NCBI GenBank assembly: GCA_021732525.1
Contig: JAKFUU010000012.1
Location: 62,001-126,000 of the forward strand
Reading direction: 5' to 3'
Source of the DNA: Sphingomonadaceae bacterium
GTDB lineage: Bacteria; Pseudomonadota; Alphaproteobacteria; Sphingomonadales; Sphingomonadaceae
DNA: 64,000 bases
A model generated the notes under the pieces. It was not told the origin of the DNA. It saw only the letters and a program-made list of their open reading frames with translations, and ran no database searches. This document shows positions 13,917 to 61,696 of this stretch, one piece after another (positions within the stretch are counted from its first letter, which is position 1; each line of letters starts with the position of its first letter). The position numbers were made by a program, and so were the translations under genes.

Positions 13917-13931
13917 TCCGAACATCACCAC
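13910..13931. terminator. Hairpin between convergent small gene and traG
   Basis: GTGGTGAT (13910-13917) and ATCACCAC (13924-13931) form a perfect 8-bp stem with a 6-base loop. The stop codons of both convergent genes lie inside the stem. No clear T-run follows on either strand, so it may be an imperfect bidirectional terminator or an RNA-stabilising 3' hairpin for the long tra transcript. Confidence 0.45.
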
Positions 13932-16627: not shown

Positions 16628-16656
16628 TGTGCTGCGCTTTCAGATCGTCAGTGGGG

Positions 16657-24412: not shown

Positions 24413-24440
24413 GGAAGGTTATCCTCAGTGATCGGAATGG

Positions 24441-40915: not shown

Positions 40916-42074
40916 CAGCAAGCTCCCCGAGATAGCGGCTGGCGATACCCCACCTGAAATCGAGCCGCGCGTCCCCTGATGCACCTGACCAACGCTCAAG
41001 CGGCGCATCGTGCAGGAGCCTGGCTTTCATGCGTTTCAGGCCATGCTCTCGCTGCTTGATCAGTTCAGTTGCCCGTTGATCTGTTTCGATGGTGCCACCG
41101 CTGTCCCGCACAATTGTCACCCATCCTCGGATGAAGTCTCGCGATGGCTTGGTGAGGTTATGGCTGGTCTTGCCGATCAGAGCGAAAAGATCATCGAGAT
41201 CCCAATCGTTCAACGACAGATTGTCGAGCTCCGACTTCCAGTCTTCAATGCTCGTGCGATAATACGCCGTTAAATTAGCAGCATCGGCGTGCCTTTTGGC
41301 GTTCGGGCGATCTGCAGCACGAAGGGCCAAGAGCAGATTGTAAAGAAGACTGGCGCCGTACATCACCCCGGAAAATCGTTCGGCGTGCCGGAGAATTGCG
41401 CGATTGAAGTCTGATATGGTGTCGACACCGACCTGCCAGGGCCAATCCTCCGTGAAGGTTTTGCCGTTGCGCGCCAATTCGTTGAGCAAGCTATTACCTG
41501 CATGGCTTTCAAGCCGGTCTCGCAAGAAGTCCGCTTCGCCTTTTTCGAGCGTAAAGGAAGCCTCATCCAAGAGGTTTGCCGGTGCCTTAGGAAGGTTTGG
41601 CGCCCAAAGTTTGAGATCATGATCTTTCAAGCTCTCGGGACCATATGACAGAAATGTTGACTGGCTGCCCGACAGCCCCCGAATGCCGAGCGTGCTCAAG
41701 CCTGCCCAATAAACGCTTGATGCAAGTCGCTTCAGGTTTCGCCCGGCGTCGCGCCCGATCACACCGACAGTCTCGCCGCCGCGGAGCAGTGCTTCGCTCA
41801 ACTGGAATTCGAGCTCGCGCGCGATCGCTGCGCGCTCCGCCTGTGTGGCCTTACGGCTCTGGGCCTCTTGGTAGATCCAAGGGATGAACAGCATGTAACG
41901 CAGCCGTGTCTGGATGGTGCTTGTCCCCGGAAAGAGGAGATCGGCAAGTCCGTCACGAACCGTGCCGAGGCCGAGCTCGTCTCGGGCCTCGGGCTGTTTG
42001 AACAGGTCGATCAGTGTTTGAGCGCGGCGACGCTCTTCGGGGTCAAAATCAATCCAGGCGAGATAGGACATCAA
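40905..42074 (-). CDS. DUF6361-like protein of the AAA/PLD/helicase operon
   Basis: 389 residues. It starts MMSYLAWIDFDPEERRRAQTLIDLFKQPEARDELGLG and contains RLRYMLFIPWIYQEAQSRK, which I associate with DUF6361, a family of unknown function seen beside helicase and PLD genes. No catalytic motif stands out and the fold is mainly helical. It overlaps the PLD gene by 11 bases and follows the AAA gene by 68. It could be a structural adaptor. The family name is from memory, so treat it as tentative. Confidence 0.75.
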   Translation of the reverse strand: MMSYLAWIDFDPEERRRAQTLIDLFKQPEARDELGLGTVRDGLADLLFPGTSTIQTRLRYMLFIPWIYQEAQSRKATQAERAAIARELEFQLSEALLRGGETVGVIGRDAGRNLKRLASSVYWAGLSTLGIRGLSGSQSTFLSYGPESLKDHDLKLWAPNLPKAPANLLDEASFTLEKGEADFLRDRLESHAGNSLLNELARNGKTFTEDWPWQVGVDTISDFNRAILRHAERFSGVMYGASLLYNLLLALRAADRPNAKRHADAANLTAYYRTSIEDWKSELDNLSLNDWDLDDLFALIGKTSHNLTKPSRDFIRGWVTIVRDSGGTIETDQRATELIKQREHGLKRMKARLLHDAPLERWSGASGDARLDFRWGIASRYLGELADAG

Positions 42075-42142: not shown

Positions 42143-44185
42143 TCAGGCAGCTTTTTGATCGGGGTTTTGGAAGCGCGAACTTGGCTCGAGGGACGGCAAT
42201 TGGAATCCGACAGGTCCCCTTGTGGTTTCTCCGCGTGCTTCGATTTCCTCAAGGAGCCATCTGACCAGAACCCCAGGATCGCGCTCACCCAGTAATCGCG
42301 CGCGATGCGCGACAACCGCAAAGTCACCGGGAGTTTGCCCGTCGTGAAACGGAAAACGCTGCGGCCAGCCGAGTGCGAAGGTTTTCTCGAAAAGCGCCTT
42401 TACCTGGCTTTGCGTCATCGCCTTGAATGTCGTGCGAATGGTGAAACGACGCTGTGTTGCAGCATCGAGGTTATCTGCCAGGTTTGTCGTCGCGACGAAG
42501 GGCGCGCGCAAATGCTCGAGCTGGACCAGCATCTCGTTCACCTGCCTTACCTCCCAGCTGCGCTGTCCCGCCTCACGCCGGTACAGGAAGCTCTCGGCCT
42601 CATCGATCAAGAGCAGGGCACCGCGCTCTGCTGCGATGGCAAAGGCCTCGGCAATTTTCTGCTCGGTCTCGCCCACAAATGGGCTCATCAGATCTGATGC
42701 CCGCCGCTCTTCGATCTCGATCCCCATCAGCTCGGCAAGATGCCTGGCAAAAGCTGATTTGCCCGTGCCGGATGGTCCAGAAAGAAGCAGGCTCCATGCC
42801 CGATCCGGTGAAACGGCCAGTTGCTGGGCTAAGCGCTTGAGGTCCGTCTCTGCGTTCGACAATCGCGGATCATAGGTCGACCGCGTGCAGATCTCGGGCG
42901 TGCATGACTGACCGAGACCGCGCATGACACTGTGGATCGCAGTTTTTGCCACCTCCGCGCCGCCGCTCGTCAACTTGGCGGCATTGAGTCCGGCTGCCAC
43001 CACCGCAGCGGGTGCCTTGATACTGGCAAGGTCGCGCAACTCCGCTGAGTTTAGCGATAGCGACACATTCTCGGCCGACCGCCTCACAATTCGTTCGCGT
43101 ACGGCAAAGCGAGGCCTCTCGAACCCAATCGCCAGTGTCATTCGCCTGAGGACCGCAGGACTCAGCTGTGACCGATCATTGACGATCCAGATGGTAGAAA
43201 CTTCGGGGTTCTCGACCAGTCGGTGAATCCATTGCTTCGAGGTCGGCCGCCGTTCGCTCATCCTCAGAACGTCGTCTGCCTCGTCGACAACGATGACCCG
43301 ATCTCGGTGGTGACGGCACATGGCGCGCAGCACCATAAGGTGATCAAGTCGCTCCGACCGGTCGGGCTCGTTGCCGTAGTCGTCCGCTAGCCCGGCGAAG
43401 GTTGCTCCGCTGCCCGCCTGAGCAGCGAGTGTCCGCGCAAATTCGGTCTTGCCTGTGCCAGGCTCGCCGAACAGCAGAATGCTCACAGGTTGTCTGGTCG
43501 CAAGAACCTTCAATGCGATGTCTCGCAGCGGGTTGAGATGCTCGAAATCGTCCCAGCCCAAAGCACCAAGCTCGGGTTCGGGCAAAAGCCAGCGCAGCAT
43601 CTCCTCCTGCGTTGCAGCGTTCAAACAGATAAGGCGCTTGAGCAGAGAACTCAGGCTATATTCGCCATCACGATCATCATTGATGAGCCGCGATGCGAAG
43701 AGCGGCGATCCCTGAACAAGCCTTTGCTCTGCCATACTGCTCGGAAGGCTCGCGAGGCGTCCGATCACCCTCGGGGACAAGTTGCTGCATGAAAACGGTC
43801 CGCGCCGCACCAGTTCGCGCCAGCTTTCGTATCGTCCCCAGCGCGCAAATACGCTTAAAATGACCGTGTCGGTCGGCTCAAGGCCAAACAGATCGCTGAT
43901 CCAGGACAGGAGCCGATCGAGCTCTGTCGTTTCACCGGGCATTGAGGTCAGCTGTCGAGCGATGACCTTCGCTTCGGCGATCGTCGGTTTTTCACGATTG
44001 GCGATCCTGCGCAGTCCAGGGACGGGTGTTTCCCGTTCGATCAACTCGATCAGATCCTCGCCTGAGCGTTTCAACTGATGAGCAGTCAGGCTTTGCAGGA
44101 TTTTTCCTGCAGCCTGCGCGAAATGTGCAGCCTCGCCCTTGGTGTCGAGATCGAGATTGGTTTGATAAGGCGAGCGACGTGCCAT
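42143..44185 (-). CDS. Tandem AAA+ ATPase heading a putative defence operon
   Basis: 680 residues from ATG at 44185; an upstream in-frame ATG (44503) would run through the promoter and operator and is rejected. Two AAA modules are visible: LLFGEPGTGKTEFARTL with VIVVDEADDVL (about residues 243-300) and LLLSGPSGTGKSAFARHL with ALLLIDEAESFL (about 471-525). The second also has SRH-like ATQRRF. The N-terminal 230 residues are helical. First gene of the operon; a candidate WYL operator (44241-44255) lies 56 bases upstream. It may act as a sensor or remodeller for the PLD/helicase pair. Confidence 0.85.
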   Translation of the reverse strand: MARRSPYQTNLDLDTKGEAAHFAQAAGKILQSLTAHQLKRSGEDLIELIERETPVPGLRRIANREKPTIAEAKVIARQLTSMPGETTELDRLLSWISDLFGLEPTDTVILSVFARWGRYESWRELVRRGPFSCSNLSPRVIGRLASLPSSMAEQRLVQGSPLFASRLINDDRDGEYSLSSLLKRLICLNAATQEEMLRWLLPEPELGALGWDDFEHLNPLRDIALKVLATRQPVSILLFGEPGTGKTEFARTLAAQAGSGATFAGLADDYGNEPDRSERLDHLMVLRAMCRHHRDRVIVVDEADDVLRMSERRPTSKQWIHRLVENPEVSTIWIVNDRSQLSPAVLRRMTLAIGFERPRFAVRERIVRRSAENVSLSLNSAELRDLASIKAPAAVVAAGLNAAKLTSGGAEVAKTAIHSVMRGLGQSCTPEICTRSTYDPRLSNAETDLKRLAQQLAVSPDRAWSLLLSGPSGTGKSAFARHLAELMGIEIEERRASDLMSPFVGETEQKIAEAFAIAAERGALLLIDEAESFLYRREAGQRSWEVRQVNEMLVQLEHLRAPFVATTNLADNLDAATQRRFTIRTTFKAMTQSQVKALFEKTFALGWPQRFPFHDGQTPGDFAVVAHRARLLGERDPGVLVRWLLEEIEARGETTRGPVGFQLPSLEPSSRFQNPDQKAA

Positions 44186-44240: not shown

Positions 44241-44255
44241 CGACAAATTTGGTCA
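44241..44255. promoter_or_regulatory. WYL-type operator site 1, upstream of the AAA/PLD/helicase operon
   Basis: CGACAAATTTGGTCA, one of four near-identical 15-bp imperfect palindromes in this island (consensus CGACAAATYTGGTCG). On the minus strand the TTGTCG at its end could serve as a -35 with a weak -10 GTGAAT 17 bases further. It lies 56 bases before the AAA start and also upstream of the divergent gene at 44431. Confidence 0.65.
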
Positions 44256-44430
44256 TATTGAAGAATGGGGTCGCGCGCCCATCGTTGTCGAACAGCGAGA
44301 CGAGAGCAGTGCCAGAGATGGAAATGCGCTTTCGAGGCGTAGTTCCGAAATGTTGACATGCAGGCATCGATCCCGAACTGAATGGACTGTACCACCTCTA
44401 TTAAGTTGTCGATTTCTGGAGCTATTTGAA

Positions 44431-44949
44431 ATGTCTGCCCCTGAAGCCCTGATCGAGGAAATCCGTCTGCGCCATGAACTCTACACCGCGCTTCATCGGG
44501 CAAGGGCTTCGGATCCGACGACGTTCACGAATGGGTTTAGCAACCAAATCTTCGGAGCGATCCTGGGAGGCGCTCGAAGCTATGGCTGGCGGGTTGTCGG
44601 GATCACAAAGGCGGCACTGCAAGCCTACAAAGATCATAATTTCACAATCAAGGCGCAGGCGGCAACCCGAATGGAGCGCGGCCATCTCTACCGAAGGATC
44701 GACACCACAGTAATGGCTCTCGCGACCCCCGCGCCGATGACGGTTGAACAGCTTGCAAGACTTTTATGGGAACGGGACATGACTGTCATTGGTGTGCGAG
44801 GTGAGAACAAGATGGTCGAAACCGGAAAGGTTACGCCAATCAGCATCCCCAATGATGATTGCAAGCTGTTCACCGGCAGAACGGTCAGTTGGCAATTTGG
44901 GCCAGCTGAAAAGGCCTGCCTGCGAGAGCTGGCAGCACAACATCTGTGA
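44431..44949 (+). CDS. Unknown protein divergent from the AAA operon
   Basis: 172 residues from ATG at 44431 with GGAG 9 bases upstream; a longer frame from 44203 would include the operator and is rejected. The sequence (MSAPEALIEEIRLRHELYTALHRARASDPTTFTNGF...) suggests an N-terminal helical part and a mixed C-terminal part with MTVEQLARLLWERDMTVIGVRGENKMVETGKV. No family is recognised. It lies between operator sites 1 and 2, in the same direction as the WYL gene, and may be part of the regulon. Confidence 0.62.
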   Translation: MSAPEALIEEIRLRHELYTALHRARASDPTTFTNGFSNQIFGAILGGARSYGWRVVGITKAALQAYKDHNFTIKAQAATRMERGHLYRRIDTTVMALATPAPMTVEQLARLLWERDMTVIGVRGENKMVETGKVTPISIPNDDCKLFTGRTVSWQFGPAEKACLRELAAQHL

Positions 44950-45149
44950 CAGCTATGTCCCCAGTTCGTGTAGGTTCTAGAGCTTGGACTTACACGGACC
45001 TGGTTCAGTATTACCAAACAATCCCGCTATGATTTGAGCACGCAGGAGTGCTTGATCGAGGTTGCCGCCAACCTGGAGATGTCGGCAAACATTCCGGCCA
45101 AGAGAAGCAACTCGCGTCGGTGATCAGATGTTCCTCTAGAGTCATATTG

Positions 45150-45164
45150 CGACAAATCTGGTCG
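45150..45164. promoter_or_regulatory. WYL-type operator site 2, upstream of the WYL regulator
   Basis: CGACAAATCTGGTCG, identical on the opposite strand to site 3. It lies 65 bases before the regulator ATG and is followed at once by TCTAAAT, a possible -10. The position fits autoregulation. Confidence 0.65.
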
Positions 45165-45229
45165 TCTAAATCTTGCACATGCTCGTTCTGGCTTGCTCAC
45201 TGCGAACAATGGGTTAGCAGTACAACCGC

Positions 45230-46222
45230 ATGCCCCAACGTCTCAGCAACCTTGATCGCACCCTCAAGCTTGTGCACGCGCTCACCCAGAGCATCGAAGG
45301 CCTTACCCTGGACGAAATGGCGGTCTTGCTCGGAGTCAACCGCCGCACGATTGAGCGAATGCGCAATGTGATCTTGCTTCACTTCGACCTTGAGGAATTG
45401 GTCGATGGCCGTCTCAAGCGCTTCAGGATCAAGGATAGCCCGGGCCGAGCCTATGCCCGCCCGAGTTCAGCTGAGGTGGCTGCGCTTCAATCCGTGGTCG
45501 AAGCAGGGCGGCGAGAAGGTACGGCAAACACCGATGCACTCGAGAAGCTGCTCTCCAAAACCAAAATTGCCTTCGACAGCGCTGAGCGGCGACGGCTCGA
45601 CAATGATTTGGAGCTCCTGACCAAGCTGCAACGATCACGCGTTGCCGCAGGGCCAGCGGTAGTAGTTTCTCCGGAAGACCTCACGACAATCCAGTCGGCA
45701 ATTCTTGCCAGCCATTGTGTTGATTTCGACTACCGCCCGGATTGGGCGGATGAACCCTCCTGGCGGAGGGTCATCCCTTTTGGCCTGATCCATGGACCGA
45801 TCACGTACCTTCTCGGAAAGATGCCTGACCGGGACGATCCGCCCTTTACCTTCCGGCTCGACCGGATGACCAACGTGCGGGATAGCGGCGTTGTGGGCTG
45901 CCCGCCGGAGGACTGGGATCTTGATGCCTGGATGGCCCGAAGCTTCGGCATTTGGCAGGAGGCTGACCACGACATCGTTTTCAGAATTCTGCCCCATGCT
46001 ACCGAGCGGGCCCGTGCATGGCGATTTCATCCCAAACAACAGATCGAAGAAGATGGCGAAGAGCTCGTGGTTCGCTTCAGTTCCGGAGGCTTGGTCGAGC
46101 TGGCCAACCACCTGTTTGGCTGGGCAGGGGACCTGATCATCGAGCAGCCGGAGGCGCTCAAAGACGTTATGTGCGAACGACTTGCCACCGCCCAAACTAT
46201 GGTGCGACCAGATTTGTCGTAA
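45230..46222 (+). CDS. WYL-domain transcriptional regulator of the second island
   Basis: 330 residues. The N-terminus (LDRTLKLVHALTQSIEGLTLDEMAVLLGVNRRTIERMRNVI) is a winged HTH, the centre (about residues 140-235, with WRRVIPFGLIHGPITYLLGKM and FTFRLDRMTNVRD) is a WYL domain, and the C-terminus (VVRFSSGGLVELANHLFGWAGDLIIEQPEALKDVM) is a WCX dimerisation domain. This is the complete plan of WYL regulators that sense a nucleotide-like ligand during infection. Its own promoter and three other units carry the same palindrome. Its last five codons are part of operator site 3. It is only distantly like the BREX regulator at 12396-13268. Confidence 0.9.
   Translation: MPQRLSNLDRTLKLVHALTQSIEGLTLDEMAVLLGVNRRTIERMRNVILLHFDLEELVDGRLKRFRIKDSPGRAYARPSSAEVAALQSVVEAGRREGTANTDALEKLLSKTKIAFDSAERRRLDNDLELLTKLQRSRVAAGPAVVVSPEDLTTIQSAILASHCVDFDYRPDWADEPSWRRVIPFGLIHGPITYLLGKMPDRDDPPFTFRLDRMTNVRDSGVVGCPPEDWDLDAWMARSFGIWQEADHDIVFRILPHATERARAWRFHPKQQIEEDGEELVVRFSSGGLVELANHLFGWAGDLIIEQPEALKDVMCERLATAQTMVRPDLS
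46205..46219. promoter_or_regulatory. WYL-type operator site 3, at the end of the WYL gene and upstream of the AddB-like gene
   Basis: CGACCAGATTTGTCG, the exact reverse complement of site 2. It encodes the C-terminal RPDLS of the regulator and lies about 60 bases before the AddB-like start, so coding and regulatory use coincide. Confidence 0.62.
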
Positions 46223-46280
46223 GCGAGAGGTAAGGAACAAGCGCGTAGGCAGTCAGCAGAGCGCTGGGGGAAATTTTTTG

Positions 46281-48995
46281 ATGTTTGAAGACTGTTATCT
46301 CCGGATCGGGGACGCGCCCTTTACGAGCTGCATGCCGCTTAACGCGCAACTTCTCGCCAGCCTTTATGCTCTGCCCCATGCAACCGAAAAGCCTGTCCAC
46401 GACGCCCTCGAGCAGCTTGGTGACGCTGCTCCATGGGCGGAAAGCTATGCAATCGCGCCGGAGCAAACGGCAGCAGCGGTGAGCGCGATGCTGCGTCACC
46501 TCATGATGGCGACAAGCGATCTTGATCCGGCATCTATCACAACCGAAGGCTTGCCCGCCGGCACGCGGGCGCGTCTTCACCTTGAGGCTCTCTCGAACCT
46601 TTGGTCGGGCAATCAGGACCTTCTTCCTGCTGATCTTGCAGCACTGAAGGCTTTTCTGGCCTGCGATGCGGGTGATGCGCTTCAGTCCTTCGCTGTCGTG
46701 TGGGATCGCAATCGGGAAGATCTGACGCGTATGGAGCGCTCCGTTCTTGAGCGCCTCGAGCTTCATCACGGCAGATTGAGCGATGAGGACCCTGATTTCG
46801 GCCGGCTTATCGCTGCGCGTAAGCACCACTCAGCTTCGCAATCGACATTCCTGGGTCATGCGCAACGTCATCTGCTTGATGCTCATGCGTTTCCTGCACC
46901 CCAAGATGACAGCCTCGCCGTTCTTTCCGTCCGCGACTCTTTGACCGAATGCGAGGCGGCCGCAGCCATAATCCAGCGCTGGCTTGCCGAGGATCAAGAC
47001 CTCAAGCAGAGCGACATCGGGATCATCGTGCCGCCCAATAGCGAATATGGTCTCTATCTCGCCGAAAGCCTGCAGCATGCAGGATTGAGTGCGTCGTCTT
47101 TGCCAAGCCCGTGCGCGCGTCGGAATGTCGGACCGGAAGCGCTTTTGCATTTCCTCCAATGTCGTCGGCGCCCGGCGCCCGCGATGGCGCTTGCATCGCT
47201 TTATTGTTCGCCAGTCCTGTGTTGGCCGCCGGAATTGGGCAACGCGCTCGCCACAGCTGCAATGTCAGGCGATTTTGCACCGCGCCTGACCTACGATCTG
47301 ACCGGCAACGAGGCAGCATTGTTTTCGCTGATCCGCTCGCCTTCGCCTGCAACCAATGGGCAGCTCAAAGAGCAAATCCGATGCTTCGTGCGGCTCCTCA
47401 GTCAAAGCAGCGCATTTGCGCAGGATGTTTTCGAGGCCAAGCAACATGCGGCACGCGTCATCAACGCGCTTGGCAATGGTCAGGATGCGGGTGAGGCAGA
47501 GCTCGAAAGGGCCATCAAGATCGCTGCGGCCTATCAGGCAGAAGCTGCATCAAGGGCCCCATACTTTCTTGGCGGTCTCTCTGTGATGCTCGCGCATGAG
47601 GCGCCAAAGCGAGCCTATCGCAAGCTGCTTCTGCTGGGCTTCAACGACGGACAATATCCCTCAACCCCGTCCGGCAATCCTTTCTTTCTGGATAGCGAAG
47701 TGGCCCTGATCGCCGAGCGTACTGGCATACAGCTGCCATCGCAGGCGAGGCAGCTCGGCAATGCGCTCGATCTTTTCAATCGCCAAATCGGCGCCGGCAG
47801 CGAGCAGGTGATTGTCCTTCTCTCGGAGCGCGATCGCGCCGGCAACGCGCAGTCCGTCTCATCGAGCTTGCCGCTGATCTCTCGTCTCGTTGAAGGCATC
47901 GATGATCCGGAGACGCTGATTGAACCGCTCAGCCATAGCGATGGGACGATCTGGGACCAACTGGTCAGCTGGAAACTACGTCCTGTCATCGAGCCGCAGG
48001 CCTATCCCGAGGTCCCGGCGCACTACGAATTCGAATTTGATCTCCTCAGCCTGCGCAAGAAGGACGACGGCACACCACGCGCCCAAAGCCCGAGCCGGCT
48101 TGAGAAGCTGCTGGTCAGCCCGCTTGCCTGGGTGTTGGCCGAACTCGAGGCCGAACATGTCTCATGGCAGCCCGAGGCGCTCGACGTGATGCTCCGCGGG
48201 TCGCTTGCTCACGAAGTGTTCGAACGTCTCTTCCCGCCAGGAAAGGACCACCCTTCGCCGGAAAAGATCGAAGCCGAGGTTCCCAAACTGCTTCTTGACC
48301 GCATCCGCGCCATCGCCCCGTTCCTGCAGACCTCTGCATGGACCGTAGAGCGCAACATGCTTGAGACGGAAATTATCAAATCCGCCAAGCATTGGTCGCT
48401 GGTTCTCAAGTCTTTGGACGCAGAGATTGTGGGCAATGAATTCTGGCTGGGCGGCAGTCTGTTCGATCACCCCATTCATGGGAAGGCCGATTGCCTGCTG
48501 CGGCTGCCCAACGGGCAACCAGTCGTTGTTGACTACAAGAAAAGCAGCTCCGGCAACCGGCGTGACCGACTTCAGAAGGGATGGGATCTGCAAGTCGACC
48601 TCTACCGCCGGATGGAGGTTCGGATTGATGACCGCAGCGGCGACGCTGTCATTCGAATTGCCGAGACTCTCACCAGTTGGCCGACGCCGCCAGCGGTCGC
48701 TTACCACACACTCAATGATGGCAATCTACTGCTCAACGGTGTCGACGACCTGGACAACGCTGAGGTCGAACTTGTCGGCGGCGACATTGCCAAGAATGCC
48801 GTCTCGCTCATTTCTGCAAGGTTCAAGGCGCTCAAGGCGGGCCGCTTGGAAACCAACACCACGGCTGACGCCAAGTCGTTCCAGAAATCAGCCGCTCTCA
48901 GCACCTATGCACTCGAAGACAGTCCGCTCATCGCTGCGTTCATGCGCGACGACACCGCGCCGTCAGTAAGCTTCACGGATGATCAAAATGACTGA
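46281..48995 (+). CDS. AddB/RexB-like nuclease with PD-(D/E)XK domain
   Basis: 904 residues from ATG at 46281, which has a G-rich ribosome site (GGGGG) 10 bases upstream; the frame extends back to 46182 inside the regulator but that part is not protein-like. The body is an inactive helicase-like scaffold (SLTECEAAAAIIQRWLAEDQ, LLLLGFNDGQYPS). The C-terminal nuclease domain has HGKADCLL, VVVDYKKSSSG and WDLQVDLYRRM (about residues 733-770), giving the D-x(n)-DxK-Q pattern of RecB/AddB nucleases. The partner overlaps it by 17 bases. No iron-sulfur cysteine cluster is obvious. Confidence 0.85.
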   Translation: MFEDCYLRIGDAPFTSCMPLNAQLLASLYALPHATEKPVHDALEQLGDAAPWAESYAIAPEQTAAAVSAMLRHLMMATSDLDPASITTEGLPAGTRARLHLEALSNLWSGNQDLLPADLAALKAFLACDAGDALQSFAVVWDRNREDLTRMERSVLERLELHHGRLSDEDPDFGRLIAARKHHSASQSTFLGHAQRHLLDAHAFPAPQDDSLAVLSVRDSLTECEAAAAIIQRWLAEDQDLKQSDIGIIVPPNSEYGLYLAESLQHAGLSASSLPSPCARRNVGPEALLHFLQCRRRPAPAMALASLYCSPVLCWPPELGNALATAAMSGDFAPRLTYDLTGNEAALFSLIRSPSPATNGQLKEQIRCFVRLLSQSSAFAQDVFEAKQHAARVINALGNGQDAGEAELERAIKIAAAYQAEAASRAPYFLGGLSVMLAHEAPKRAYRKLLLLGFNDGQYPSTPSGNPFFLDSEVALIAERTGIQLPSQARQLGNALDLFNRQIGAGSEQVIVLLSERDRAGNAQSVSSSLPLISRLVEGIDDPETLIEPLSHSDGTIWDQLVSWKLRPVIEPQAYPEVPAHYEFEFDLLSLRKKDDGTPRAQSPSRLEKLLVSPLAWVLAELEAEHVSWQPEALDVMLRGSLAHEVFERLFPPGKDHPSPEKIEAEVPKLLLDRIRAIAPFLQTSAWTVERNMLETEIIKSAKHWSLVLKSLDAEIVGNEFWLGGSLFDHPIHGKADCLLRLPNGQPVVVDYKKSSSGNRRDRLQKGWDLQVDLYRRMEVRIDDRSGDAVIRIAETLTSWPTPPAVAYHTLNDGNLLLNGVDDLDNAEVELVGGDIAKNAVSLISARFKALKAGRLETNTTADAKSFQKSAALSTYALEDSPLIAAFMRDDTAPSVSFTDDQND

Positions 48996-51900
48996 ACTTT
49001 CGATTGTGCCGGCAGGGGCAGGGGCGGGCAAAACCCATCACATCCAGGAAACTCTTACCCAGTGGGTAAGGGAAGAAAAGGTGCGGCCCGAGCGCATATT
49101 GGCCGTAACCTTCACCGAGGCCGCTGCTGGTGAACTGCGCCAGCGGATCAGGAGTGCGCTGATCAGTGATGGCAATCTCCAGGCGGCGCTCGCTGTCGAA
49201 CGGGCCTATGTCTCGACCATCCATGGTCTCGGCCGGCGCCTGCTGATCGAGCATGCCTTTGCGTCCGGATCATCGCCGCAGCAGCGCCTGATCGCCGAAG
49301 ATGAGCAGGACCTGCTGATCCGCCGCTCGATCGAGGAAAACGATGCCCTGCGCGAGCTGTCGCGCAACCTTTCGGCATTCGGTTATCGCGGCAGCTTTGT
49401 TTCGGACGAAAGTGCTGAAGATAGTTTTCGCAAACGGCTTTTGGGCGTCATCGCGCTGCTGCGAACGCTTGGCCCGCGCGGCAGTGATCCGGCTATGTCC
49501 GATTTTGTCGAAGCATCGATCCGGCAAGGCTACGGCGAGCCGCAGGGCAGGACTGATGCACTGGCAGCCGGGTTGAAGGCAGCCGTCGACGACCTGCTTC
49601 GTGCCTTCCCGAGATCCTTGGCCGAGACTGCGGCGAATGCGACCGCAAAGAGCGACTTCCGGGAAAATTTCCAGGCGCTCAAACAGTCTGCGCAGATGCT
49701 GGCAGGAGAGGGCAAGGACTGGCGTCTGTGGCAGAAGCTCCGCGGTCTTCGTCAGTCGAAGCGCGGCAGTCCGACCCCCGATGGCTACGACGACTTGGCC
49801 GATGCAGTGATGGCGGCCGCCGACAAGCTTGTCTCCCATCCTGGCCCGCTTGAAGATGCCGTTCTCCACGCGCGTGCGTTGGTCGAGGGCGCTCAGGCAG
49901 CCATGTCTGACTATGAAACCCGCAAGCGAGAGCTTGGCGTTATCGACTTCAGCGATATGGTTACGAACGCTGCGAGGATCCTCGACGAGAAGCCTGAAGT
50001 GCTTGCCGCGATCATGGACGAAGTGGACTGCGTCATTGTCGACGAGTTCCAGGACACAAACCCGATCCAGTTTACCTTCCTGTGGTCATTGGCGCGCCAG
50101 GCCAAGCATGCGCTGATTGTGGGCGACACCAAACAGGCGATCATGGGTTTTCAGGGCGCTGATCCGCGGCTCACGGTCGCCCTCACAAACCAATTCGACA
50201 CCAGCCCGCTCCATCGCAACTGGCGCTCCGATGCGCGGATCATGGATTTCGTGAACGCGCTCGGCCCGTGTCTCTTTGGCGAAGATTACACGCCGCTGAC
50301 TGCACAGAATCCAGCGGGCCCTGAAACTGCGCTGGAGGTGATCCAGCTGGCTTGCAAACGCAATTCGAGGTCCAGCGGCAAACCTCAGCATTTCATCGCC
50401 GACAGGCTCTTGTCGCTGCTGGCCGACGAGAAGATTGCGATCATTGACCGTCACTCGAAGAAGCTGCGAGAACTCGAGCCACGAGACATTGCCGTTCTGT
50501 GTCCAACGCATAATCATTGTGCGAGCTATGCAGGTGCTCTGCGCTCGCTGGGATTGCCAGTACGCGTGGCTGAAGGCGGCTGGTGGCAGAGCCAGGTGGT
50601 TCAGGCCGCCTGCTTCGCACTTCGCGTCGCTGTGGACCCCAATGACCGTCACGCGGCAATTTGCATGGCGACCTTGGGGCCGGGCGCAACGCCTCTTCCC
50701 GAAGCGCTCGGCGCGCTTGCGCAGCATGGTCGCATAGCTGCGCCGGAGCTCGCGGGGCTGGAAGCGCTCTGGCCCGAGTCCCTTGCCACCCCGGTTGATC
50801 ACCTTGTTCATCAGGTGATCCGGGCATCAGGACTTCGGGAGTGGTGCGATCTGCTCGATGACCCGGCGCAGATGAGAGCAGACCTGCTGCGCTTTGAGGC
50901 GGAAGCGGGAGCCTTCATAGAGGCTCACCGTGATATGCGCGAAGCATCCGGCTTCTATGGTCAAAGCGCCAACGTTTTCCTTGGATGGCTCGAGAACAAG
51001 GTTGGCTTGAAGGGTGAGGACCTGCGGCCCAATCCCGCAGGCGCTGAAGCAGACGGGATCGAGATTGTGACCTGGCACGCGTCCAAGGGACGCGAATGGC
51101 CGATCGTCGTAGTTTGCGGATTGGACCACAAGTTCGACCCCAGGCCTGCGACATTCAGCACGAAGTTTCCCGGTTTTGACGATCTCGACCACGTTATTGG
51201 AGAGGCAACCCTGGCCTATGCGCCCGAGTTTGCCGCGCCCGAAGCGACCGATCGTTTTCTCGAAGAGCTCTACCCGGAGTGCGAAGAAACGGCGCGTCGG
51301 TTGCTCTACGTAGCGCTCACGCGAGCGCGCAATCGCCTCATTATTGAATGGCCGCAGGACGACGAGAAGGTTGAGCCACCATTGCCGATCACGTCTCGCC
51401 GTCTGATGAACGATGTCTGCGGCCTCACGCTGCAGGGAAATCAGATCATTATCGGTACGGACAGCTTTCCTGCTCGCATGACGATCTGCGACAAGGAAAT
51501 CCCGGCTTCCTTCGCAGCTGACACCCGGGTTGGCTTGGGTGCGTCGGATCGCGAGTTGCGTTTCGCCATTGAACAGCGACCAGTCATGGAGCTGGAGGCG
51601 GTGATCAGCCCCTCACTGGCGCTCTCAACTCATCGCCCATCGCCGCGTGAGATCGAGACCAGAGCGATTGCGGATGGTGTTCGGCTCTCAGGGACGGATC
51701 TCGCCCAGGCGACGGATAAGGGGACTGCCGTCCACGAGGCTTTGCGGATCCTGCTGTGCCGACCAAATCTGAGAGATAGAGTGGGTCAGCACTGCCGGGC
51801 TTCCGAGGCCGAGGTCGAGCTTCTCGCGAAGCAGGCGCAAGCACTTCGTCAGACCCTCATGGATCTCGGCTATTCGCGTCTGCATGTCGAACAGCCAATC

Positions 51901-52161
51901 GAGATCGAACTGGCCGATGGAGGACGTCAGAGCATCATCGTCGATCTGATCGCCGAGGGGGCAAATGGCTTCATGATCATCGATCACAAGAGTGGGGCAG
52001 TCGTAGATCATGCCCTTCGCTTCGAAAGCTACTGGCCGCAGTTGGCAGCGTACATCGATGCTGTCGGCACAAAGGGCGGAAGGCCGGTTGATAGCGCAGC
52101 CATTTTTTGGACAGAAACCGGCGAGCTAACGATCGGTCGAGATCCCGGGCTGAGCGCGTGA
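48979..52161 (+). CDS. AddA/RexA-like UvrD helicase-nuclease
   Basis: 1060 residues. Walker A PAGAGAGKTHH lies at residues 11-21, the UvrD motif II VIVDEFQDTNP near 353, motif V-VI IVTWHASKGREWPIVVV near 695 and RRLLYVALTRARNRLI near 775. The C-terminal nuclease domain has GTAVHEAL, SIIVDLIAEG and FMIIDHKSG (about residues 915-1003). With the AddB-like partner it would resect double-stranded DNA ends. ATG at 48979 overlaps the previous stop; ATG at 48988 is an alternative. The last base pairs precede 180 bases of spacer. Confidence 0.88.
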   Translation: MIKMTELSIVPAGAGAGKTHHIQETLTQWVREEKVRPERILAVTFTEAAAGELRQRIRSALISDGNLQAALAVERAYVSTIHGLGRRLLIEHAFASGSSPQQRLIAEDEQDLLIRRSIEENDALRELSRNLSAFGYRGSFVSDESAEDSFRKRLLGVIALLRTLGPRGSDPAMSDFVEASIRQGYGEPQGRTDALAAGLKAAVDDLLRAFPRSLAETAANATAKSDFRENFQALKQSAQMLAGEGKDWRLWQKLRGLRQSKRGSPTPDGYDDLADAVMAAADKLVSHPGPLEDAVLHARALVEGAQAAMSDYETRKRELGVIDFSDMVTNAARILDEKPEVLAAIMDEVDCVIVDEFQDTNPIQFTFLWSLARQAKHALIVGDTKQAIMGFQGADPRLTVALTNQFDTSPLHRNWRSDARIMDFVNALGPCLFGEDYTPLTAQNPAGPETALEVIQLACKRNSRSSGKPQHFIADRLLSLLADEKIAIIDRHSKKLRELEPRDIAVLCPTHNHCASYAGALRSLGLPVRVAEGGWWQSQVVQAACFALRVAVDPNDRHAAICMATLGPGATPLPEALGALAQHGRIAAPELAGLEALWPESLATPVDHLVHQVIRASGLREWCDLLDDPAQMRADLLRFEAEAGAFIEAHRDMREASGFYGQSANVFLGWLENKVGLKGEDLRPNPAGAEADGIEIVTWHASKGREWPIVVVCGLDHKFDPRPATFSTKFPGFDDLDHVIGEATLAYAPEFAAPEATDRFLEELYPECEETARRLLYVALTRARNRLIIEWPQDDEKVEPPLPITSRRLMNDVCGLTLQGNQIIIGTDSFPARMTICDKEIPASFAADTRVGLGASDRELRFAIEQRPVMELEAVISPSLALSTHRPSPREIETRAIADGVRLSGTDLAQATDKGTAVHEALRILLCRPNLRDRVGQHCRASEAEVELLAKQAQALRQTLMDLGYSRLHVEQPIEIELADGGRQSIIVDLIAEGANGFMIIDHKSGAVVDHALRFESYWPQLAAYIDAVGTKGGRPVDSAAIFWTETGELTIGRDPGLSA

Positions 52162-52344
52162 CGCAACAATTGGGAACTCCTCATGCTTTAAGATCGGTGT
52201 GATTGATCGCTTTCCTTCCGATGGTCAGTCTCGGCTGAACGACGCAGGATATCTAGATGTCTTGCAAGAGGAAATGAGGGATCAAGTGGTTCATTGGCCC
52301 AAGGTGCCACCGCTTTTGACGTATCGGGATGAGAGGCTTGGCAC

Positions 52345-52992
52345 ATGAAAAAACCTGATTCTGTTGCGGCGCTGACCGAATTGGGCCGTGTTCGCCTATC
52401 AAAGTCATTCTTTTTGCGGGATTTTCTGTTCTCGGACATCGCCGCGATTCATGGTCTGACCAACGTGCCTGATGATCCGGACCTAGCGATCGCAGCAGGA
52501 AGCAAGCTCTGCGAAGAACTGCTTGAACCATTGCAGGATCGGTTTGGCCGTATCGCTGTTCGATCCGCCTTTCGGTCGTGCGAAGTCAATGGGTTGGGCA
52601 ATGAGATGCAAGCTGCGGGGAAGGGCGGGTACAACTGCGCGTCGAACGAGGCCAATTTTGCCGGGCATATCTGGGATCGACGCGATGCCAAAGGCCGGAT
52701 GGGTGCCACGGCCTGCGTCGTCGTTCCGGCATTCTGGGACACCTTTCAGGCAGACGGGGATTGGCGAAAGCTGGCCTGGTGGATCCACGACCGCCTTCCC
52801 TATTCGAGCCTCTATTTCTTCCCGAAGTTCTGGGCCGTCAACATCGCCTGGCGCGAGGAGCCAGAGCGACGGATCGACAGCTACACCTATCCCAAGGGCT
52901 GTTTGACCAAGGCGGGCATGCCGAACAATTCTGGATCACACGAGCAGGAATGGGCTGGCATCGAGGCAGCGATGGTGCGCGGATTTGCGTGA
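52345..52992 (+). CDS. Peptidase M15-fold-like protein
   Basis: 215 residues. SKSFFLRDFLFSDIAAIHGLTNVPDDPDL followed by LCEELLEPLQDRFGRIAVRSAFRSCEVNGLGNE and NFAGHIWDRRD follows the pattern of M15 (D-Ala-D-Ala dipeptidase) proteins: N-x-P-D start, SxxRS-x-xVN, and an H...D metal pair. The final metal His of the family is not obvious (NIAWREEP instead of WVH), so it may be inactive or bind another ligand. GAGG lies 8 bases upstream of the ATG. Function in the island is unknown. Confidence 0.6.
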   Translation: MKKPDSVAALTELGRVRLSKSFFLRDFLFSDIAAIHGLTNVPDDPDLAIAAGSKLCEELLEPLQDRFGRIAVRSAFRSCEVNGLGNEMQAAGKGGYNCASNEANFAGHIWDRRDAKGRMGATACVVVPAFWDTFQADGDWRKLAWWIHDRLPYSSLYFFPKFWAVNIAWREEPERRIDSYTYPKGCLTKAGMPNNSGSHEQEWAGIEAAMVRGFA

Positions 52993-53005
52993 AAGGGAAG
53001 CCGGC

Positions 53006-53662
53006 ATGTCGATCCCAGGTCAGCTAATCACCGCCGTTGATATGGCGATCGCGAGCGGAATAGATCCGAAGCGCTTTCGAGCTGCTCTTCGCGCTGCAAC
53101 TCTCGATTGGCATCCGCAAAATGGACGTTGGGAGGTCGTCCGGGGGAGCGATCAGCACCAAGACATGGAGAGGGTCATGGCGCAGCTGGCAGCAGGGCGT
53201 CTCAGGCTCCGACCGCCTTCTAAAGCCGTACAACGCGTTGCCTCGGCCGCAATTCGCGACGAGCATTACGTGCTCGATCTTTGTGATGCAGTTCTCGGAC
53301 TGAAGGCTGCCAGGCAGCATTGCTTCCCATTTCTCACTGGAGATCCGGATCGGCATGGTCGCCAAAAGCCATTGCCCGTTGATGGCTTTTACCCGGCTCT
53401 TGGCCTTGTTGTGGAATATCATGAGCGCCAACACCGCGAACGCGTCGGGTTCTTCGACGATAAGCCGACGGTTTCCGGCGTGTCGCGGGGCGAGCAGCGC
53501 CGACGATATGATGAGCGCCGCGCCGAAGTGCTGCCGAGGCATGGCTATAGCTTAGTCGTTCTCGAGGTGCATGAATTCGCGCATGATAGAGCCAAGCGCC
53601 TGCTCAGGTTACCTCAAGACGAGGCAATCGTCAGGCAGCGCCTTCAAAGCTTTATCGCCTGA
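53006..53662 (+). CDS. Unknown protein with restriction-endonuclease-like motif (VSR/DUF559-like)
   Basis: 218 residues from ATG at 53006, with a purine-rich ribosome site (GGGAAG); an ATG at 52985 overlaps the previous stop. The C-terminal half has PVDGFYPALGLVVEYHERQHRERV, then RRRYDERRAEVLPRHGYSLVVLEVHEF. This D-x(13)-E-x-H layout with a following R...R...G-V pattern recalls the Vsr/DUF559 endonuclease fold. The N-terminus (residues 1-80) may be DNA binding. The assignment is from pattern only. Confidence 0.55.
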   Translation: MSIPGQLITAVDMAIASGIDPKRFRAALRAATLDWHPQNGRWEVVRGSDQHQDMERVMAQLAAGRLRLRPPSKAVQRVASAAIRDEHYVLDLCDAVLGLKAARQHCFPFLTGDPDRHGRQKPLPVDGFYPALGLVVEYHERQHRERVGFFDDKPTVSGVSRGEQRRRYDERRAEVLPRHGYSLVVLEVHEFAHDRAKRLLRLPQDEAIVRQRLQSFIA

Positions 53663-53690
53663 TTAATGGTTATTCGGGCAATGATGCACG

Positions 53691-54467
53691 ATGGCTATTG
53701 AACCTCGTAATCCCCGACTTGCTGTATTGATAGACGCCGACAATGCGTCCTCCCGGATCGCACCGCGGCTTTTTGAGGAGATTGCCAAAATCGGTGAGGC
53801 AAGTGTCCGACGTATCTACGGCGATTTTTCAGGCACCAGACTGAAATCCTGGGCCGACGTTCTCGCTACGCATGCGATCAAGGCGCACCAGAACTTCGCA
53901 TACACCAGTGGCAAGAATGCCTCGGACATCGCTTTGGTTATCGACGCAATGGACCTTCTCCATACCGGTCGTTTCGATGGCTTTTGCCTTGTCTCGTCCG
54001 ACAGTGATTTTACTGGCTTGGCCTCGCGTATCCGAGAGCAAGGCATAGACGTGTACGGTTTCGGAGAGCAGAAAACACCCGAGAGCTTTCGCCAAGCCTG
54101 TCGCCGCTTCATCTACACTGAAAACCTGCTGCCAGAGGCGCCCACTCCAGATCAGCTGGGTGGACAGGACTCCCGTCCGGCTAATGTCATGAAACCGCCC
54201 ACGGCCGCAGCACCTTTGATTCGGACCGCTATCTCACAGCTTGATGATGAAGGGGGCTGGGTACCTCTCGGCCGCGTGGGCCAACGTCTTGCGGCGCTCG
54301 CTTCCGACTTTGACCCCCGAACCTATGGCCAAGGCAAGCTGAGCGACTTGGTCGAAAATGCCGGGGGTTTCGAATCTCGCCGAACTGATACGGGACACTT
54401 GCAGATCCGCGTCGTTGCCTCGGAAAATGCGGGCAAGGCTAAGGCTAAACATGCCAAGCCCTCATGA
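53691..54467 (+). CDS. NYN-domain RNase-like protein with OST-HTH/LOTUS domain
   Basis: 258 residues. The N-terminal PIN-like NYN domain has LAVLIDADNAS (about residues 10-20), YTSGKNASDIALVIDAMDLL and FCLVSSDSDFTGLASRIREQGIDVYGFG, with the acidic residues of the metal site kept. The C-terminal domain (about residues 178-245, IRTAISQLDDEGGWVPLGRVGQRL, YGQGKLSDLVENAGGFE) is an OST-HTH/LOTUS RNA-binding fold. This family is common in bacteria and is thought to act on RNA. It lies in line with the defence-like genes. Confidence 0.85.
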   Translation: MAIEPRNPRLAVLIDADNASSRIAPRLFEEIAKIGEASVRRIYGDFSGTRLKSWADVLATHAIKAHQNFAYTSGKNASDIALVIDAMDLLHTGRFDGFCLVSSDSDFTGLASRIREQGIDVYGFGEQKTPESFRQACRRFIYTENLLPEAPTPDQLGGQDSRPANVMKPPTAAAPLIRTAISQLDDEGGWVPLGRVGQRLAALASDFDPRTYGQGKLSDLVENAGGFESRRTDTGHLQIRVVASENAGKAKAKHAKPS

Positions 54468-54538
54468 TCTTCCCGGTTCGCTCCTGCGTGAGCTTGGCTC
54501 GCCTGGTGTGCTGAAGGTTTAACGAGGGGGCACTGCGG

Positions 54539-55117
54539 ATGGCTCGCCTCACTAAAGCGAATTTGAGCTACCTGAAACGCCATGGGATCGAACCCGAAGA
54601 AGCTTTTGATGCCTCGGGTCTGAAACGCGCCGAATATCGACCGAGAATGAAGGCTGAGGGGAAGTTCGTCGCCTACGGTGTCACGCCGTGTCAAAACGGT
54701 CATGCTCTGCGCAATCGGTACGGAAACTGCATTGAGTGTTTCCCGGCCTCAATCGCATTTGCGCGCCGGAGTGAATTGCCAGGCTACCTTTACCTTGCCC
54801 AGTCGTCGGATTTGGGTTTGATCAAAATCGGCTTCTCAAGCGACGATCCGGACAATCGGATCTACATCGCGAATCTCGACGGCTACGGCGGAGCGTGGGA
54901 CTGGCGGATTTGCATGACGGTTTGGGCAGAACATGCCGGCGCGAAAGAGATCGCCGTGCATCGCTCGCTTTTCGAATTTCGCAATGAAAGGCTCTGGGTA
55001 CGGAATGGGGCGGCAGTCGTTTCGAAGGAGCTTTTCGATTGTGATCTCGCTCTGGCCATCGAAACTTTGTCGGCGCATCTAACGGCCAGAGAGCAAAAGG
55101 CGATCGACTACCGATAA
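54539..55117 (+). CDS. T5orf172 (GIY-YIG-like) domain protein
   Basis: 192 residues. GYLYLAQSSDLGLIKIGFSSDDPDNRI (about residues 80-106) and a following WAEHAGAKEIAVHRSLFEFRNERLWVRN are characteristic of T5orf172/MUG113 domains, a GIY-YIG nuclease relative. The N-terminal part has CQNGHALRNRYGNCIEC, a possible CxxH...CxxC zinc ribbon. GAGGGGG lies 9 bases before the ATG. A role in DNA cutting or binding is likely but unproven. Confidence 0.78.
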   Translation: MARLTKANLSYLKRHGIEPEEAFDASGLKRAEYRPRMKAEGKFVAYGVTPCQNGHALRNRYGNCIECFPASIAFARRSELPGYLYLAQSSDLGLIKIGFSSDDPDNRIYIANLDGYGGAWDWRICMTVWAEHAGAKEIAVHRSLFEFRNERLWVRNGAAVVSKELFDCDLALAIETLSAHLTAREQKAIDYR

Positions 55118-55180
55118 GCGTCATTGAAAATGCATCTGCGTGGTCGCGTCACGAACCCACCAAGCACTGGCGCATTGTCG

Positions 55181-55195
55181 CGACCAATTTTGTCG
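55181..55195. promoter_or_regulatory. WYL-type operator site 4, upstream of the ADP-ribosylglycohydrolase gene
   Basis: CGACCAATTTTGTCG, read on the other strand CGACAAAATTGGTCG, matches the consensus of sites 1-3. It lies 23 bases before the ATG at 55219, overlapping the expected -35 to -20 region; TATAGA at 55205-55210 may be the -10. Confidence 0.62.
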
Positions 55196-55218: not shown

Positions 55219-56682
55219 ATGAACTCAAACTTCCGCACAAGCTTCACCGACCCCATCCAGATTGCAACCCTGGCCGCTGGCAGTGGCTGCATCGGCGTAT
55301 CATTTTGCCCGGGCAAACAGAGTAGGTCCGTTGGTGGATTTGACTGGCGGCGTGACCTCGCTGTTGACTTGGACGCGGTCTCTGAGTGGGGCGCTGTAGC
55401 GGTGATTTCGCTCATAGAGGACCATGAGATTGATGCGCTTGGCGTTTCAAATCTGGCGTCGGAGGTGGCAGCTCGAGGGATGCAGTGGTTTCACCTGCCA
55501 ATCCCCGACGTCACCGCACCTGGCGCTGATTTCGAGCATGGGTGGCGCTCTGCCGGGCCCCATGTGCGCGGCTTACTCGCCAGCGGACAAAGCGTCTTCA
55601 TTCATTGCAAGGGCGGGCTCGGCCGCGCGGGGACGGTAGCCGCGAGGCTCCTCATTGAGCTGGGAGAAGCCGAGCCGAAAGATGCAATTGCACGCGTGCG
55701 CGAAGTCCGCCGCGGCGCAATCGAGACTGTGCCTCAAGAAGATCACCTGCATTCGATCTGGAATATCTACGACCGCGCTTGTGGATGCTTGCTTGGATTG
55801 GCTGTGGGCGATGCCTTGGGGACGACCCTCGAGTTCAGGCCGCGCGATTCCTATGATCACATTACCGACATGGTCGGGGGAGGGCCGTTCGGTCTGGAGC
55901 CGGGAACTTGGACCGATGACACATCCATGGCATTGGCGCTCGCAGAGGCATTACTCGCAAGTGCGGCGCAGGGATCCGCTTTCGAGCCAGAGGAGGCGCA
56001 AAGTCGCTTCGTCGATTGGTGGCGAAATGGAGCATACAGCCCGACAGGTGACTGTTTCGACATCGGGATTACGACCAGCCAAGCGCTTGGCCGGTTTGAA
56101 GCGACCGGCGATCCCATGTCGGGCTCAGCTGACCCTTATTCGGCGGGGAATGGTTCGCTCATGAGGCTGGCACCCGTCGCAATCTGGGGAATCCATGAGG
56201 ATCCCTCAATTGTGGCTCGTGTCGCACGTCGGCAAAGCGCAACTACCCACGCGGCACCAGCCTGTCTGCAAGCCTGCGATGCTTACTCACTGATCCTTCG
56301 GGCAGCCATTCTCGGTGCTGATTTCGAGGCGGCATTGACCCAGGCTCATGGCGAGTATGGGCCTGTGATCGCGCCGATCATTGCTGGCAGTTGGCGCGGG
56401 AAGCAGCGCCACCAGATTTCCAGCAGCGGTTTTGTGGCGCATAGCCTTGAGGCAGCTCTCTGGTGCGTCGCAAACACAGACAATTTTGACCACGCCGTGC
56501 TCATGGCAACAAACCTGGGGGACGACGCCGACACAACTGCGGCCATCACAGGTCAGCTAGCCGGAGCTCTGTACGGAGCCTCGTCCATCCGGAAGTCATG
56601 GCTCGAAAAGCTGGCTTGGCGCGGGAAGATTGAGAATCTTGCTCGGGATTTGGCTTTCCCGCAAATGACGGTGCAGGCCTAG
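55219..56682 (+). CDS. Dual-specificity phosphatase fused to ADP-ribosylglycohydrolase
   Basis: 487 residues. Residues about 30-175 are a cyclin-dependent-kinase-inhibitor-3-like phosphatase with HCKGGLGRAGTVAARLL (CxxGxxR loop near residue 129). Residues about 185-480 are an ADP-ribosylglycohydrolase with LGLAVGDALGTTLEF, GTWTDDTSMALALAEALL and NLGDDADTTAAITGQLAGALYG, keeping the acidic metal ligands. It could remove ADP-ribose and phosphate from proteins or nucleic acid, or detoxify ADP-ribosylation. An isolated gene with its own operator copy. GAGG precedes the ATG by 7 bases. Confidence 0.9.
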   Translation: MNSNFRTSFTDPIQIATLAAGSGCIGVSFCPGKQSRSVGGFDWRRDLAVDLDAVSEWGAVAVISLIEDHEIDALGVSNLASEVAARGMQWFHLPIPDVTAPGADFEHGWRSAGPHVRGLLASGQSVFIHCKGGLGRAGTVAARLLIELGEAEPKDAIARVREVRRGAIETVPQEDHLHSIWNIYDRACGCLLGLAVGDALGTTLEFRPRDSYDHITDMVGGGPFGLEPGTWTDDTSMALALAEALLASAAQGSAFEPEEAQSRFVDWWRNGAYSPTGDCFDIGITTSQALGRFEATGDPMSGSADPYSAGNGSLMRLAPVAIWGIHEDPSIVARVARRQSATTHAAPACLQACDAYSLILRAAILGADFEAALTQAHGEYGPVIAPIIAGSWRGKQRHQISSSGFVAHSLEAALWCVANTDNFDHAVLMATNLGDDADTTAAITGQLAGALYGASSIRKSWLEKLAWRGKIENLARDLAFPQMTVQA

Positions 56683-58689: not shown

Positions 58690-58930
58690 CATGGGAGATC
58701 CAAAGCCAGATAAGCTTTGGACGAAAGGCATTTAGTGAGCATGGTTTCGCTTGAGGTTTAGAACGCCGTTAAAGGGGGGCGCCGCCTACAACAAATTGCT
58801 CAGATAGCTAGGTCCCGCCAAAAACTTATGGAGCAAATCTCAATGGCCAGCGGTAACTGTAGGTGGCGAACTCTCATAAGCTCTTGTTTATCTGTCAAAC
58901 GATGTCAATGAAATGGGGGGAGTAGCGCTT

Positions 58931-60877: not shown

Positions 60878-60895
60878 AATGCCCGCATCTGCCGG

Positions 60896-61611: not shown

Positions 61612-61696
61612 CGACCACTCCTAAGCGCGCTCACAAGAGCACGCTAAAGAGCGCTCAATACCTACCCAGACAAGGCGGCCCCCGCCGGATGGATAC

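Follow-up and report, generated by a model that had tools for sequence, protein, structure and literature searches.

Directional DriD-type boxes as candidate operators of a WYL regulator in a sphingomonad defence island

How could several unrelated defence units that share one island be placed under common control? The question is raised by a 64,000-nucleotide stretch of the genome of a Sphingomonadaceae bacterium (GCA_021732525.1, 3,009,692 bases; contig JAKFUU010000012.1, positions 62,001-126,000; hereafter the window), in which four copies of a 15-bp box lie around a gene for a WYL-domain protein and ahead of the neighbouring units. An original prediction, made from the sequence alone, proposed that one WYL regulator switches on these units together. 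The analysis described here supports that proposal: with good confidence, the boxes are read as operators of the island's own WYL protein, a putative transcription activator of the type of DriD from Caulobacter crescentus. This confidence is based on the linkage of box and regulator in held-out loci, the published DriD consensus, the homology to DriD, the direction of the boxes, their spacing to the promoter, and sites near WYL genes outside the stretches used for derivation. The regulation of whole defence islands is poorly known, and BrxR, a WYL regulator of defence, is described as a repressor. Published statements were taken from parts of PMC12340889 (a preprint), PMC10693628, PMC11804915, PMC9122601 and PMC4211646.

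The boxes, the WYL protein and the DriD operator

All four predicted sites were present: two are exact copies of the predicted pattern on opposite strands (starting at 45150 and 46205) and two carry one mismatch each (44241 and 55181). They are called boxes 1 to 4 in order of position (Table 1). The 15-bp repeat is real, but the palindrome that had been described is imperfect: 3-5 of the 15 positions break the symmetry, and this asymmetry is conserved (A at position 5, G at position 11). The arms CGAC-N7-GTCG are exact at three of the four sites, with one change at the fourth. The boxes do lie ahead of the units that had been named, with two amendments: the "AAA/PLD/helicase operon" was re-annotated as an AAA ATPase gene with zacABC of the Azaca system, and box 3 overlaps the end of the WYL gene, where it forms the final 15 nucleotides of the coding sequence (RPDLS codons before the stop); the addB ATG (46281) lies 62 nucleotides on.

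With up to three mismatches, the pattern was matched 10 times in the window; 100 shuffles averaged 2.89 matches and reached 8 at most. No fifth clear copy was seen, as had been noted before: the further matches at 57593 (two mismatches) and 28763 (three mismatches, yet an exact CGACA-N5-GGTCG) are both imperfect to the pattern and inside open reading frames (ORFs). When the whole genome was scanned with up to two mismatches, 43 matches were found, against 15 for the letter-reversed control, and the only two exact copies are in the island. Three far copies with one mismatch (contigs C3, C6 and C44) lie inside ORFs of unrelated genes.

The best solved relative of the WYL protein is C. crescentus DriD (PDB 9pfq/8tp8; E 4e-49 with the single sequence, 2e-88 with a profile). 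The alignment covers residues 8-321, that is, the full length with the helix-turn-helix, three-helix, WYL and WCX regions, at 36% identity. In the PDB search, nine sequences were matched at E ≤ 0.001, DriD and PafBC entries included; the best PafBC match was weak (E 7e-9). In a tree of 83 rows (4 left out), the window protein fell in a 19-row clade (support 100/99) made up of the AddAB-linked rows, L082-L084 and L086, separate from the Caulobacteraceae proteins including DriD; the 27%-identical WYL paralogue of the same genome fell outside this clade. The WYL-domain arginines R209 and R212 (RxxR) are invariant in 20/20 alignment rows and, matched by spacing rather than by alignment, would correspond to arginines that PafBC is described as requiring for single-stranded DNA (ssDNA) binding and SiwR for its function. 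Among the residues with which DriD contacts RNA polymerase, R120-R122 are kept in this clade and E128 is present as E or D. Two side observations were made on the relatives: Novosphingobium sediminis carries three DriD-like genes on three contigs (L075, L077, L132), two of them in the AddAB clade, and L107, placed among the Sphingomonas proteins by the tree, comes from a record titled Bacillus sp. 2B10 that is probably mislabelled or contaminated.

DriD is described as an ssDNA-activated transcription activator with the consensus ATACGAC(X)7GTCGTAT (PMC12340889, in the part used here). The C. crescentus driD promoter printed there contains CGACAGAAACGGTCG, an exact match to the motif found in the present work. 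DriD bound at this promoter is reported to activate the divergent operon and not driD (PMC12340889), whose expression is described as constitutive. As judged from the printed sequence, the box would face driD in the forward reading, and the divergent activation fits the orientation rule of the boxes described below. The window protein resembles DriD in its predicted CGAC-N7-GTCG box, which has the inner asymmetry of the printed driD and didA promoters, and in having a box within its own promoter that would act on a divergent gene. The two differ in that the present boxes belong to an island with conjugation genes and stand ahead of accessory AddAB, AAA-Azaca and ADP-ribosylglycohydrolase genes, in contrast to didA, bapE, recJ and dnaG, and in that several polymerase-contact residues have changed.

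Linkage, direction and spacing in related loci

For the derivation set, WYL relatives were collected at E ≤ 1e-20 from 44 of 396 genomes of the order Sphingomonadales, and 30 stretches were fetched. A second, named set consisted of the best 79 loci of 234 WYL relatives; removal of 19 loci that repeat the first set (exact 400-nucleotide match) and of 13 more distant ones left a held-out set of 47. Across related loci the box narrows to the asymmetric form CGACA-N5-GGTCG, which reads CGACC-N5-TGTCG on the reverse strand. The strict motif was CGACARAWNYGGTCG, and letter-reversed and letter-shuffled motifs were used as controls.

The derivation set (part of the window plus 30 loci) contained 30 exact CGACA-N5-GGTCG sites and none of the reversed control. 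The held-out loci contained 44 strict sites in 31/47 loci, against 0 for the reversed motif and a mean of 0.06 (maximum 1) for shuffled motifs. With a relaxed motif, 70 sites were found in 39/47 loci; the controls gave 2 sites (reversed), a mean of 3.6 with a maximum of 17 (shuffled) and 2-14 (six altered-arm motifs). A chance origin of the four sites was ruled out by the window shuffles and by the control counts of both sets. The boxes accompany this WYL clade across genomes: a box at the WYL end stands ahead of addB in 13 other loci (L069-L081), L125 has a box 124 nucleotides ahead of addB, and five distant WYL paralogue loci had CGACA-N5-GGTCG in 0/5. Of the 31 strict sites in 22 WYL-bearing genomes, 21 are no more than 15 kb from the WYL gene (16 inside derivation stretches, 5 outside).

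The 13 more distant WYL loci contained one CGACA-N5-GGTCG site, versus 11 of the form CGTCA-N5-GGACG. Eight of the 11 (in L137, L139-L142, L144 and L146, mostly Caulobacteraceae) are found at the promoter or the end of the WYL gene with unchanged orientation, and three elsewhere. A switch of specificity in Caulobacteraceae was rejected, since the recognition helix is nearly unchanged; the variant was read as tolerance at the third base.

These loci also bear on a rival explanation, in which the boxes are genuine operators of another cellular regulator and the neighbouring WYL protein has no part in them. It has in its favour that the link between protein and box is drawn from sequence data, namely homology, box identity, linkage, orientation and spacing. 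Such a regulator would have to explain why the boxes stand at the promoter and the end of the WYL gene in many genomes, why they were not found in the five distant paralogue loci and why they match the site of the closest solved homologue, and we regard it as very improbable.

Direction was counted in the named close loci, first-set repeats included and identical contexts removed. Because the loci are relatives of one another and share a homologous WYL-end position, these counts are not independent. Every site in a WYL promoter reads forward, with CGACA-N5-GGTCG toward the WYL gene (20/20; 17 in the held-out loci alone), and every WYL-end site reads backward, toward the next gene (35/35; held-out 30). 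The remaining sites comprised 18 in the cargo sense (CGACC-N5-TGTCG toward the gene), 3 opposite, 2 in both and 11 with no gene start nearby (held-out: 12, 2, 2 and 7). For L083:303, one of the opposite sites, any neighbour in the cargo sense would be cut off by the contig end at which the site is located.

For the spacing, the first base of CGACC-N5-TGTCG was set as index 0, and index 27 was assumed to be position -11, which places the box at about -38 to -24 and index 38 at +1; genes with an ATG at index 38 should therefore be leaderless. Cargo sites were defined as WYL-end sites plus strict sites with a neighbour in the cargo sense; of the 59 sites, 47 were non-redundant, 3 of these from the window. 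Index 27 is A in 39 of the 47, index 24 is G in 23, and an ATG starts at index 38 in 13, against about 0.7 expected (1 in 64). All six near-WYL sites outside the derivation stretches have A27, and five have the ATG. The WYL promoters gave no spacing signal in the forward reading (A27 in 6/17), and those without a divergent gene had A27 in 2/7 in the backward reading. Of the ten strict sites far from WYL genes, eight were fetched; each is embedded in an ORF of 60 or more amino acids, with A27 in 3/8 and the ATG in 0/8. Three of the eight (L160, L161 and L163) are nevertheless close to, or at, the beginning of an ORF that they face in the cargo sense. The three printed C. crescentus DriD promoters, with boxes placed by the present analysis, all have G24 and A27, although the didA and bapE boxes as placed depart from CGAC.

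In the window, A27 is also present at box 2 in its leftward reading, and the ATG of the gene behind box 4 (55219) is exactly at index 38, the implied start, as it is in L079, where a box with A27 precedes an ADP-ribosylglycohydrolase gene. The string CGACC-N5-TGTCG-N12-A occurs three times in this genome (box 2 leftward, box 3 and box 4), all in the island, and its control not at all. A genome-wide trans regulon in this organism was rejected for want of support: the far one-mismatch copies are inside ORFs and the string with N12-A is confined to the island. As a side observation, box 2 read leftward would give transcription antisense to the small ORF at 44431-44949, toward the AAA genes.

Orientation and spacing are also relevant to the view that module shuffling left the boxes behind as scars, in the form of short junction repeats copied when cassettes were inserted and devoid of a regulatory role. 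The spacer between the AAA and WYL genes invites it: L069 has a single shared box there (CGACAAAATTGGTCA), and in the window a small ORF has been gained with a box on either side, both flanks aligning around the single box of L069. Scars are not expected to show an orientation, A27, an ATG at index 38 or a match to an experimentally studied operator, and we give this view next to no weight.

A box over the -35 region could equally block RNA polymerase, and the WYL protein might then be a BrxR/CapW-like repressor, released from the boxes on infection so that the units are derepressed jointly. CapW is reportedly a repressor. These proteins resemble the present one as WYL regulators encoded within or beside defence systems; BrxR represses a defence island, and of the homologues identified in its family about half have a link to such systems (PMC9122601, part used here). 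The BrxR operators described in the same source consist of 11-bp repeats with a 5-bp spacer just downstream of the promoter, unlike CGAC-N7-GTCG over the -35 region, and no such arrangement was found at the boxes. Neither BrxR entry (7QFZ, 7T8K) was among the nine PDB matches, and the constancy of direction and of the spacing to the -10 element suits an activator better than a repressor. Repression of this kind appears unlikely, and a directional, DriD-like mode of activation is well supported as a prediction from these comparisons.

PafBC and SiwR of mycobacteria are similar in another respect, being described as WYL activators with a DNA-damage input that act near -26. PafBC is a heterodimer and matches the window protein weakly; a PafBC-like -26 element was rejected as the closest model, since DriD fits both box and homology better. 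The distance from the TGTCG half to the -10 element resembles that of the PafBC motif.

Several observations weigh against reading the boxes as operators of a DriD-type activator. Box 1 is the weakest copy, with T for C in the outer arm and no A at index 27 (G24 is present), and divergent AAA-type promoters in general have A27 in 1/10, G24 being found in 9/10. Eight of the 47 held-out loci have no exact box (L096, L110, L114, L118, L124, L128, L130 and L135), nor has a plasmid stretch of Croceicoccus marinus with a 56% relative. The motifs alone are not specific away from WYL loci. In 99 genomes of the family, some with the WYL gene, the strict motif gave 35 matches in 26 genomes against 25 reversed; in the 22 WYL-bearing genomes, the box with N12-A gave 109 matches, just 28 of them within 20 kb of the WYL gene, against 33 reversed, so that the pattern is not a clean predictor in other genomes. 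Since box 3 is coding sequence, its conservation and uniform orientation could come partly from the protein and from common descent. Finally, some polymerase-touching residues of DriD are changed in this clade (G18 to Q/E, A20 to I/M, P125 to N, D71 to G).

Proposed mode of action

Taken with these reservations, control of the units by one WYL regulator, as originally proposed, is well supported by the clade-linked sites, the match to the DriD consensus and the fixed promoter spacing, the last of which occurs in this genome in the island alone. Binding, activation and the ssDNA trigger are carried over from DriD in the following scheme, and the anti-phage outcome is a prediction. Phage infection or other damage would expose ssDNA, which the WYL domain would bind. 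The activated homodimer would dock asymmetrically on CGACC-N5-TGTCG boxes over the -35 region and hold RNA polymerase at promoters with a poor -35 element, at a fixed distance from the -10 element, often with G-14 and A-11. The asymmetry of the box would set the direction of transcription, outward into addBA and the ADP-ribosylglycohydrolase gene and, in relatives with the shared box, also into the AAA gene and the genes behind it. The box in the WYL promoter points away from the WYL gene, so the regulator would not activate itself; its gene may be constitutive, as driD is, or mildly repressed.

We lean towards a broader reading, in which a modular, mobile immune island has acquired an activator that senses DNA damage (ssDNA) as its plug-in controller. 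A directional box ahead of each arriving module would replace the -35 element and supply a direction and often a leaderless start, and unrelated units would thereby join one SOS-independent, infection-induced regulon. On this somewhat favoured reading, the units would be Azaca-AAA, accessory AddAB and the ADP-ribosylglycohydrolase here, and elsewhere DUF2779/Cas4-like nucleases, McrB-like ATPases, SNF2 helicases and restriction-type nucleases. In the listed part of the literature searched, no paper was found that links DriD boxes or homologues to a defence island by its title or the start of its abstract. If the reading is true, a computable directional operator predicts which island genes respond together, in which direction and from which start base; immunity would be tied to ssDNA sensing outside RecA/LexA, and a route would be given to more damage-induced immune genes near such regulators in sphingomonads.

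Gene content of the island and its relatives

Table 1. Features of the island in window coordinates, with boxes numbered from left to right
Feature	Position	Strand	Remarks
zacC helicase of Azaca	35934..39104	-	PADLOC ZacC, E 0, 1046.9 bits
zacB of Azaca	39056..41008	-	PADLOC ZacB, 7.3e-162
zacA (DUF6361) of Azaca	40905..42074	-	PADLOC ZacA, 1.6e-120; Pfam DUF6361
Double AAA ATPase, IetA/TRIP13-like	42143..44185	-	95% identical gene divergent from WYL gene in L069
Box 1	44241..44255	-	TGACC-N5-TGTCG facing AAA-zacABC; 56 nucleotides ahead of ATG 44185
Small ORF, no assigned function	44431..44949	+	Between boxes 1 and 2; missing between AAA and WYL genes in L069
Box 2	45150..45164	+	CGACA-N5-GGTCG facing WYL gene, 66 nucleotides ahead of its ATG; exact
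DriD-like WYL regulator, 330 amino acids	45230..46222	+	Pfam WYL and WCX; N-terminal helix-turn-helix and middle region via DriD homology
Box 3	46205..46219	+	CGACC-N5-TGTCG facing addB; exact; G24 and A27; implied start about 46243
Accessory AddB-like PD-(D/E)XK protein	46281..48995	+	
Accessory AddA-like UvrD helicase-nuclease	48979..52161	+	
Genes between addA and box 4: two unknowns, NYN-LOTUS, T5orf172	52345..55117	+	
Box 4	55181..55195	+	CGACC-N5-TGTCG facing phosphatase-ADP-ribosylglycohydrolase gene; 1 mismatch to predicted pattern (minus-strand reading); A27
DSP-type phosphatase fused to ADP-ribosylglycohydrolase	55219..56682	+	

The Azaca set (zacA, zacB, zacC) is complete and contiguous on the minus strand (35934-42074), and all three proteins match PADLOC models; the locus differs from Azaca as known in that a double AAA ATPase gene and a DriD-type box precede zacABC. 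The island AddA scored 130.8 bits, below the cut-off (860.75) of the alphaproteobacterial AddA equivalog model. The island AddAB was classed as accessory because an AddA of housekeeping type, above the model cut-off, is encoded elsewhere in the same genome (contig C9, 951.5 bits).

addB is present in 17 of the named-set loci, and in 14 of the 17 a divergent AAA gene (fragmented in L076) adjoins the WYL gene. More diverged zacABC genes (38-50% identical) are appended to WYL-AddB-AddA in relatives: they directly follow addA in 6 of 11 informative loci (L069-L072, L076 and L078), two of which, L070 and L071, encode identical WYL proteins. L079 has a window-like arrangement that ends with the boxed ADP-ribosylglycohydrolase gene, and L074, L081, L082 and L125 have other genes after addA. 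The one composite system that was originally suggested is partly supported: the core of AAA, WYL, AddB and AddA genes recurs, and Azaca is attached in the six loci above, but a shared function is suggested by the repeated neighbourhood only. The locus allows the idea of one system of Azaca, the AAA ATPase and accessory AddAB to be tested.

The genes found behind boxes elsewhere encode double AAA ATPases, AddB, DUF2779 (Cas4-like) nucleases, an AAA_12/RNase_H_2 helicase-nuclease, an SNF2 helicase near DrmD, restriction-type nucleases, an HD protein, a VWA protein and an AAA_5 protein, for which "McrB-like" is a label assigned in this analysis; of 20 representatives scanned, four had no Pfam match. 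A complete plasmid of Novosphingobium humi carries AAA, box, WYL, addB and addA in this order, with an exact box only between the AAA and WYL genes. When plasmids were searched for near relatives of the 10-kb core, a single short match was obtained.

Elsewhere in the window, the F-type conjugation genes TraG, TraH, TraN, TraC and TraE (13925-31251, minus strand) suggest that the defence genes are probably carried by a conjugative element. The BREX genes pglZ, pglX, brxC and brxA (1675-12765, minus strand) have no box within two mismatches of the predicted pattern. A 661-amino-acid protein (56746-58731, minus strand), with no Pfam match and a 58% relative in L065, has a C-terminus that we take to resemble a tyrosine recombinase. 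At the right-hand side, a match to the TmtA (Tiamat) model (62167-63969, minus strand) covers profile positions 797-1139 of 1538 only, perhaps as a truncated copy, and is adjoined by an IS66 element (59192-61618).

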